Assembly: GCF_900115125.1 (NCBI RefSeq)
Contig: NZ_FOVJ01000003.1
Span: 62,001-126,000 of the forward strand
From: Nitrosospira briensis
GTDB taxonomy: Bacteria > Pseudomonadota > Gammaproteobacteria > Burkholderiales > Nitrosomonadaceae
Reading direction: 5' to 3'
Length of the DNA: 64,000 nucleotides
A program made the translations under genes and the position numbers. The stretch's first letter is position 1; each line of letters opens with the position of its first letter. The notes under the pieces are model-generated. The model was not told the origin of the DNA. It made no database searches and saw only the letters and a list, made by a program, of their open reading frames with translations. Below, in pieces: positions 13,007-13,676 of this stretch.

Positions 13007-13537
13007 TGGATTGTGTCTTGGATTTAATGAAAGAAATGTAATTTCACAGCCTGAGGTAATCCGCTAATTTCACGGTTACAGTCGTGGACGTACCGCCAAG
13101 GCTTGTTTCCATTTCGTATTTCACTATGTTGCGTTAGTGGCGCCGTCGTGGAGCTGTCCGTTAATCATTGCCGAATGGCACGGTATCAGGCATTGAGAGT
13201 TTGGCGTCGGCTCACTCGAACTTCTGTGAAAAAGCGATTTGGCTATCCGGTCGAGTAAAATGCGCAGGGCTGAGCGATCCAGCGACAGAGCCTGTCTTGA
13301 TAGCGCAAGCACTAACCCTGGATCACGCGGAAGATTTAATTGAAGCTTGGAGGCGAGGCGGGAAAGTTGCGGGTTGATTTCCACGTTCAGTTCCTTTTCT
13401 AGCTGGGAGGAGGAACTGCGTGAATATGCCTGGTGGATCAAACACCACCGCTCGGGCACGAACCGCCGAAGACGGGCGCGCCGATTAGTTTTGCTTGATA
13501 AACCTCCCCACCTCGCTCAGGTGAGATGAGCGGCGTT
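13007..13537. other. Long leader/intergenic region below the riboswitch
   Basis: About 530 bases lie between the riboswitch and the beta-helix start codon. I see no convincing gene. A 111-codon minus-strand frame (13459-13124, GTG start) and overlapping plus-strand frames exist, but none shows a recognisable domain or a ribosome-binding site. Just after the aptamer, on the minus strand, CGCTCA and TGAGCG can form a hairpin around TCTCACC, followed by a G-rich AGGTGGGGAGG. This may be part of the expression platform. Confidence 0.4.
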
Positions 13538-13625
13538 ATCTGGCAGTCCTGCCGTCCTGGGGCTTATGCCCTGTAGACCGATGACTTTGCGTCCCCCGCT
13601 TTCACGAGGTATGCCTTTTTCAGAT
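13538..13625 (-). ncRNA. Cyclic-di-GMP-I riboswitch (GEMM-I aptamer)
   Basis: Read on the minus strand, the segment has the order of conserved elements of the GEMM-I aptamer. A closing stem ATCTG/CAGAT comes first, then AAAGGCATACC. Next is a stem CCTCGT/GCGGGG capped by a GAAA tetraloop (plus positions 13600-13603), then the invariant GGGACGCAAAG (complement of 13585-13595), then CATCGGTCT. The second arm ends in GGCAGGACTGCC. The bound ligand is c-di-GMP in most members; a few relatives prefer cGAMP. A sigma-70-like promoter lies just upstream. The next substantial gene downstream is the secreted beta-helix protein. Confidence 0.88.
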
Positions 13626-13647
13626 TCATAGACCGAATCGTGGGATA

Positions 13648-13676
13648 ACTATAACACAAGCTCTCCTATTTTGAAA
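13648..13676 (-). promoter_or_regulatory. Promoter of the riboswitch transcript
   Basis: On the minus strand a TATAGT -10 element (complement of 13648-13653) is preceded at 17 bp by TTTCAA (complement of 13671-13676) as a weak -35. The predicted start, near 13641, falls about 15 nt before the aptamer's first stem, as expected for a riboswitch leader. Confidence 0.5.

Follow-up and report, generated by a model that had tools for sequence, protein, structure and literature searches.

The question raised by this locus is how a riboswitch aptamer could control a gene that begins more than half a kilobase further downstream. In Nitrosospira briensis, a preliminary description of a stretch of DNA of 64,000 nt (hereafter the window, that is, the whole stretch that was analysed) placed a GEMM-I riboswitch on the minus strand, ahead of a gene for a secreted beta-helix protein, noted an unusually long leader of about 530 nt that lacked a simple terminator, and called the control mechanism not obvious. 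The length of the leader was well estimated: the distance from the aptamer to the beta-helix ATG is 532 nt. The covariance-model scan with RF01051 which the description had called for returned a c-di-GMP-I (GEMM-I) aptamer at positions 13625-13539 of the minus strand, with a score of 72.6 bits compared with the gathering score of 35 (E 2.6e-12) and over all 87 of the 87 model positions (1-87), so that both the class and the strand hold. This aptamer and one tRNA are the two Rfam matches across the window, and the aptamer is the sole RF01051 match in the 3.23-Mb assembly of this genome, which also encodes 11 GGDEF domains; under strict filters, aptamers above the cut-off are represented in at least 97 of the 125 genomes of the family. 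Within RF01051, the aptamer is unexceptional, and binding of c-di-GMP is predicted. The GGC element has both of its G residues in all 63 rows of the alignment A2 (defined below), this locus included, and one of the two presumably corresponds to G20 of Vc2, which favours c-di-GMP over cGAMP.

The gene behind the leader (13006-9860, minus strand) encodes a right-handed beta-helix protein of 1048 aa with CBM_4_9 and Beta_helix domains and an N-terminus that, by eye, resembles a signal peptide. A model of the protein built from 15 sequences (mean pLDDT 83.8) is closest to the glycoside hydrolase BT_1002 (5mqp; E 9e-13, TM by target 0.58, rmsd 7.5), followed by capsule depolymerases and CBM4 modules; the sequence-profile matches, nine altogether, include 9rx2 (5.9e-21), 5mqp (3.9e-10), and the alginate lyase 6kfn (7.4e-9). 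Judging from the sequence and the model, the protein is probably a carbohydrate-active, extracellular enzyme. The gene lies in a polysaccharide cluster that encodes a Polysacc_synt-type protein, glycosyltransferases, WecB- and GalE-type epimerases, and a ManC-type enzyme.

A search of genome contigs with the single protein detected no relatives, whereas a search with an alignment (A1) did. The protein is present in 11 of the 125 genomes, this one included, and in nine of the 11 (this genome, G100, G104, G105, G106, G107, with 43.2 bits, G108, G111, and G115) an aptamer is found upstream of the gene. This recurrence, along with the GGDEF domains, supports the proposed tie of the secreted beta-helix protein to c-di-GMP. 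In G110 and G114 (L033 and L034), no aptamer was detected within 3 kb upstream of the beta-helix gene, even at E 1; these two genomes encode the nearest relatives of the protein analysed here in the protein tree, and the absence of the aptamer reflects either loss there or gain elsewhere. No aptamer was detected within 3 kb in any of the eight scanned relatives from outside the genus (L127, L128, L132, L134-L137, and L139).

Upstream of the aptamer, a promoter-like pair is present at 13675-13648 of the minus strand, consisting of TTCAAA (13675-13670), 16 nt, and TATAGT (13653-13648), with TG before the -10 element, and would place the putative transcription start at about 13641. The -10/-35 pair of the preliminary description exists, but as a promoter it is not established: the one promoter-like site found is weak when compared with the 0.6 sites expected in shuffles.

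Downstream of the aptamer, a conserved translational platform (hairpin, Shine-Dalgarno sequence, and start codon) is present where the mechanism had been considered not obvious. A hairpin at 13418-13388 of the minus strand (CAGUUCCU / AGGAACUG), located 120 nt past the aptamer and ahead of a GTG codon at 13384, covers the Shine-Dalgarno (SD) sequence AAGGA (13396-13392), as indicated by the fold, the pair counts, and the letters themselves. The anti-SD strand (strand B, 13430-13413, minus strand), which consists of GGCAUAUU..GCAGUUC (13430-13423 and 13419-13413), can pair, partly, with the SD arm, forming the B-C hairpin, or with strand A (13549-13532, minus strand), composed of the aptamer 3' strand GGACUGC (13549-13543) and the flank GAUAACGCC (13540-13532); within strand A, the second complement of strand B is GGACUGC together with GAUAACGC. 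A platform hairpin with the SD as its 3' arm, followed by a start codon, is conserved, with small variations, in all nine beta-helix loci that have the aptamer. In this locus and in G104, G105, G106, and G108, the platform reads GCAGTTC..AGGAACTGAAC-GTG or GAGGAACTGAAC-GTG; its 5' side is GCGGTTC in G111 and CAGTTCC in G115; and the platforms of G100 and G107 read GCAGTTTCGCC..GGGAGAACTGCAAG-ATG and GCAGTTCC..GAGGAACGAAGC-GTG, respectively.

Among 88 distinct loci with GACGCAAAG-type aptamers (a set defined by the GACGCAAAG core, with loci lacking this core left out), a pattern search identified the anti-SD, SD, and start codon arrangement in 68; one of the other 20, L040 (G115), has the platform by eye. 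For comparative analysis, 63 loci were aligned (A2), namely, the 68 minus L028, L099, L100, L107, L110, and L117, which are long or divergent, plus L040. The A-B helix is paired in 90.8% of the A2 cells, compared with at most 44.5% when slid, and, in this locus, 13 of the 14 A-B positions pair (7 of 7 in the core and 6 of 7 in helix 2). There are 17 double-change cells in this helix compared with 5.5 in shuffles (the +2 slide has 19), and the covariation is 0.141 compared with 0.122, a value reached by none of the 500 shuffles. Two of the five measures are not above shuffles, pairs with a double change (5 compared with 3.6, reached by 114 of 500) and pair types (16 compared with 16.6, reached by 414 of 500), and relatedness is not fully controlled in these statistics. 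The double changes are present in both main genera, in columns 80-265 (seven rows, two genera), 96-250 (four rows), 95-251 (three rows, two genera), 101-246 (two rows), and 84-261 (one row, the G100 beta-helix locus); pairing is missing at columns 82-263 in 21 of the 63 rows and at columns 100-247 in 22. In the B-C hairpin, 89.3% of the A2 cells are paired, with 64 and 71% in the neighbouring slides; double-change cells number 16 compared with 4.8 in shuffles, and the covariation of 0.188, compared with 0.148, is reached by none of the 500 shuffles, while pair types are not above shuffles (205 of 500 reach the observed value).

When the two states were enforced, the difference between the A-B state and the hairpin state averaged -2.4 kcal/mol (sd 5.3) over the 63 loci, the A-B state being lower in 38 of the 63 and differing little in this locus (-86.8 compared with -86.6). 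Such near-equal energies fit the need of a ligand-driven switch. The minimum-energy fold of this locus (-93.3) is below both enforced states and contains the SD hairpin but not the A-B helix. The A-B duplex of this locus (-22.5) is matched by only 2 of 300 shuffles; it does not surpass duplexes with foreign strands, however, the mean for swapped strands being -23.8 and 56% of foreign B strands doing as well as its own. Over 65 pairs, matched strands outperform swapped ones (0 of 20,000 permutations), with relatedness not controlled, and only 12 of the 65 duplexes beat all 300 shuffles. Six divergent loci outside A2 mostly form weaker A-B duplexes, from -10.5 to -20.4.

For most of the beta-helix loci, among them the present one, it is a leader ORF, and not the gene, whose start is gated. 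Here, GTG 13384, directly behind the covered SD, opens an ORF of 86 codons (13384-13124, minus strand), distinct from the main gene, which it precedes by 378 nt; this ORF ends with TAG TGA, 117 nt ahead of the main ATG, with more in-frame stops behind, so that five, the leader's own included, are encountered before the main ATG. The leader stop lies about 62, 77, and 62 nt ahead of the main start in G108, G106, and G115 (in G115, counted to its GTG), and in G107, the leader ORF overlaps the main start codon. The leader is fused in-frame with the beta-helix ORF in G105, over 118 further codons (G104 is alike), and in G111, over 87, and in G100, the gated start opens a short in-frame fusion. In all seven loci tested (G100, which is short, and G104, a near copy of G105, were left out), the leader frame is open over 76-118 codons, compared with shuffle means of 22-36. 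The combined Fisher p is 4e-5, for lineages that are not fully independent; p for single leaders is 0.02-0.10, with G115 having a longer open run in another frame, and the fused loci need an open leader frame anyway. The SD energies of eight leader starts range from -5.6 to -12.3 kcal/mol, and those of six main starts are -0.7, 0.4, 0.4, -3.4, -3.0, and -3.2 kcal/mol, the first of these being that of the beta-helix start in this locus, which is almost without an SD of its own. The main-start values for G105, G111, G115, and G100 were not used because the index in these cases denotes the edge of the protein match rather than a start codon.

The leader ORF was rejected as a conserved small protein: the peptide encoded in this locus has no Pfam match, and similarity between leader peptides is confined to the first residues and to related pairs (G105/G111, E 7e-4; G100/G111, E 3e-6, the latter in the fused signal region). 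The combination of an open frame, an unconserved peptide, and a variable junction suggests selection for the translation of the leader rather than for the peptide. The C/G ratio of the leader is above that of the main ORF in eight of eight loci, a bias that is general but weak; in six of the eight, the window with the strongest C-over-G excess begins no more than 29 nt from the main start, largely outside the leader, and no clear rut site was found in the leaders of these loci by means of such windows. A possible second mini-ORF, read by eye, starts with ATG at 13112 and extends over 22 codons to 13044 (minus strand), beginning 11 nt past the leader stop and ending 37 nt before the main ATG; it could serve stepwise reinitiation or occur by chance.

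We propose that, without the ligand, strand B pairs with strand A at the 3' side of the aptamer, leaving the SD free, such that ribosomes would start at GTG 13384, whereas with c-di-GMP, the aptamer would hold strand A, and strand B would fold onto the SD and block this start. The sign follows from logic and not from measurement: the bound aptamer must hold A, so that B becomes free to hide the SD, and the switch would be OFF. The aptamer, the hairpin, the A-B complementarity, and the start codon are supported by the sequence and by its comparison across loci; the ligand dependence and the OFF sign are what we infer from them. Translation of the leader would be relayed to the main gene by keeping Rho off the leader, by termination-reinitiation, or by both. 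The beta-helix enzyme would then be made as c-di-GMP falls, which would fit matrix turnover or dispersal. On balance, we favour, with some reserve, this reading of the locus as a c-di-GMP-I riboswitch with a three-strand translational OFF platform that gates a leader ORF which relays to the beta-helix gene. The direction implied in the preliminary description, with expression on in sessile life, is the opposite of what the strand logic predicts, namely, OFF at high c-di-GMP. The other platform genes have a degradative look, which is strong in 14 of 59 and weak in most others (see below). A broader proposition is a tentative one, which we would sooner doubt than accept: the product of the leader would be irrelevant, only the act of translation being important, and the same OFF platform would define a regulon that spans the family and consists of extracellular degradative enzymes, to be released once c-di-GMP declines. 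In this case, the junction with the gene (fused, ATGA-overlapping, or separated) would have drifted because only leader translation matters, with the open frame and the gated start kept.

A different history of the locus, which appears unlikely, is that a real riboswitch has become disconnected here, the leader ORF being a stop-broken remnant of an N-terminal extension and the beta-helix gene being expressed independently. The continuity of the same start codon with the beta-helix ORF in G104, G105, G111, and, as a short extension, G100 is compatible with such a history, as are the five in-frame stops before the main ATG of this locus and the persistence of the gene in the nearest relatives, G110 and G114, where the 3 kb upstream yielded no aptamer. 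However, the aptamer, with its 72.6 bits, and 13 of the 14 A-B positions are intact in this very locus, the protein tree twice places a fused form next to a separated one as its sister (G105/G106 and G111/G115), leader frames stay open in separated forms also, and the scan of the leader yielded no sigma-70-like site.

The sign of the switch could be the reverse, with c-di-GMP raising translation and the A-B complementarity being a by-product of the SD-like GGAC in the aptamer. Likeness to an anti-SD is required of strand B, the aptamer motif GGACUGCC is SD-like, and GEMM switches of both the ON and the OFF type exist, as the title of one report indicates (PMC9262584). What makes this scenario improbable is helix 2 of A-B (GAUAACGC / GCGUAUC), which is located outside any SD complement, is paired in 84.4% of the cells, and includes double changes. 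Furthermore, all 46 rows of another genus retain G255 and C256 of strand B, although pairing of these two with the SD strand is possible in only 18 and 4 of those rows, respectively; SD pairing is insufficient to explain this constancy, which is attributable to the A-B helix. Transcriptional control via an intrinsic terminator in the leader, finally, is very improbable. Stable hairpins do form past the aptamer (the fold of 13641-13370 has a z of -3.0), but the minus strand contains one terminator-like site, with the tail GGTGGTGTTT, where 1.3 are expected, and what comes after the platform hairpin is a start codon rather than a U-run; on these grounds, the intrinsic terminator was rejected, in agreement with the original remark that no simple terminator follows the aptamer.

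The platform that, under the translational OFF reading, gates the leader ORF is not confined to beta-helix genes, the same arrangement being found directly before an ORF in 62 further loci. Of these ORFs, 59 were aligned (L003, L009, and L048, cut by contig ends, were left out), including 24 that are cut at the end of the stretch examined. All 59 have, among their first 110 residues, a segment of strong hydrophobicity, so that export is likely. By motif, these ORFs fall into 33 with WHPGHYY, 11 with LLFKSN, 14 subtilase-like ones, and 1 other. Peptidase_S8 is recognised in 14 of the 59 (best E 4e-48), and a metallopeptidase family in one. The WHPGHYY family is weakly beta-galactosidase-like (GH42 in 15 of 33 at E 0.01), and its profile matches a GH35-type structure at E 8e-5. 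The LLFKSN family is weakly polysaccharide-lyase-like (8 of 11 at E 0.01, the example member scoring below the curated cut-off), and in the profile search it matches a chitinase A1 module most clearly. Within a predicted regulon of degradative enzymes, the subtilases are firm members, and the WHPGHYY and LLFKSN families are leads. The platform ORFs often begin with an M-x-(I/T)-N-N-Q-like sequence, the hydrophobic segment being located at about residue 35 (median peak start), and the long N-region before the signal segment may be part of the RNA element.

Riboswitches that act via upstream ORFs are already known, and the variant described here, a platform and a leader ORF behind a c-di-GMP-I aptamer, is new. 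The aptamer matches the c-di-GMP-I riboswitches of RF01051 over the full length, and what sets the locus apart from them is the three-strand SD platform and the fact that the start it gates, 378 nt ahead of the gene, is that of a leader ORF. In the Mbox of Mycobacterium tuberculosis pe20, as in this locus, a translational platform controls a small upstream ORF, and this control is tied by its authors to Rho-dependent termination before the distal gene (PMC12810186); unlike here, the ligand is Mg2+, and the upstream ORF is highly conserved, whereas the leader peptide in our case is not. The main termination site, the same authors point out, is upstream of that ORF. The B12 riboswitch of M. tuberculosis ppe2 is an OFF switch, as predicted for the present one, with an upstream ORF, the translation of which is essential for the downstream protein (PMC11260477), but the ligand differs, and termination-reinitiation is stated as the mechanism. 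In the SAM-II riboswitch of Sinorhizobium meliloti metA, the SD in the riboswitch is required for translation that starts further downstream (PMC9373788), as proposed here, except that the ligand is SAM and the start is an in-frame AUG2, 74 nt downstream. The c-di-GMP-I riboswitch Bc1 of Bacillus thuringiensis shares with this locus an unusually long platform and exerts transcriptional and translational effects (PMC11218506), but it has two intrinsic terminators, and the abstract names no leader ORF. A literature search, mostly outside subscription papers, found no c-di-GMP riboswitch with an upstream ORF and no GEMM riboswitch of Nitrosomonas, and, at the level of titles, reports on Nitrosospira or Nitrosomonas with riboswitch or c-di-GMP name no such switch.

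With the platform and the leader ORF, an unexplained long leader becomes a testable model. The analysis also suggests that in Nitrosomonadaceae, which are ammonia oxidisers, c-di-GMP controls secreted proteases and polysaccharide-active proteins at the level of RNA. If the relay is true, c-di-GMP would join the riboswitches that act via an upstream ORF, in this case, one with an apparently irrelevant peptide.

Further aptamers of the family are of note. The aptamer of the G107 beta-helix locus (L129, 2555-2640) is a weak RF01051 match (43.2 bits), in which A replaces the second G of the GGC element, presumably the G20-like position, and GAGGC replaces GACGC; it could be decayed or have a changed ligand preference. 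In 15 of 25 same-genus loci (L044, L046, L050, L052, L054, L055, L057, L059, L060, L061, L063, L064, L066, L067, and L068), MKMNFKL-type proteins are preceded by a second aptamer type, with the core GGACGGAAAGC or a near variant and with the likely start codon 133-189 nt from the first aptamer base; the RF01051 scan of the whole assembly detected no aptamer with the GGACGGAAAGC core in the genome analysed here. The one MKMNFKL-type protein that was scanned contains a PEP-CTERM motif. In another genus of the family, c-di-GMP-I aptamers occur in tandem, about 230-240 nt apart, at 1570513 and 1570754 in G090:C1 and with cores at 532 and 763 in L075.
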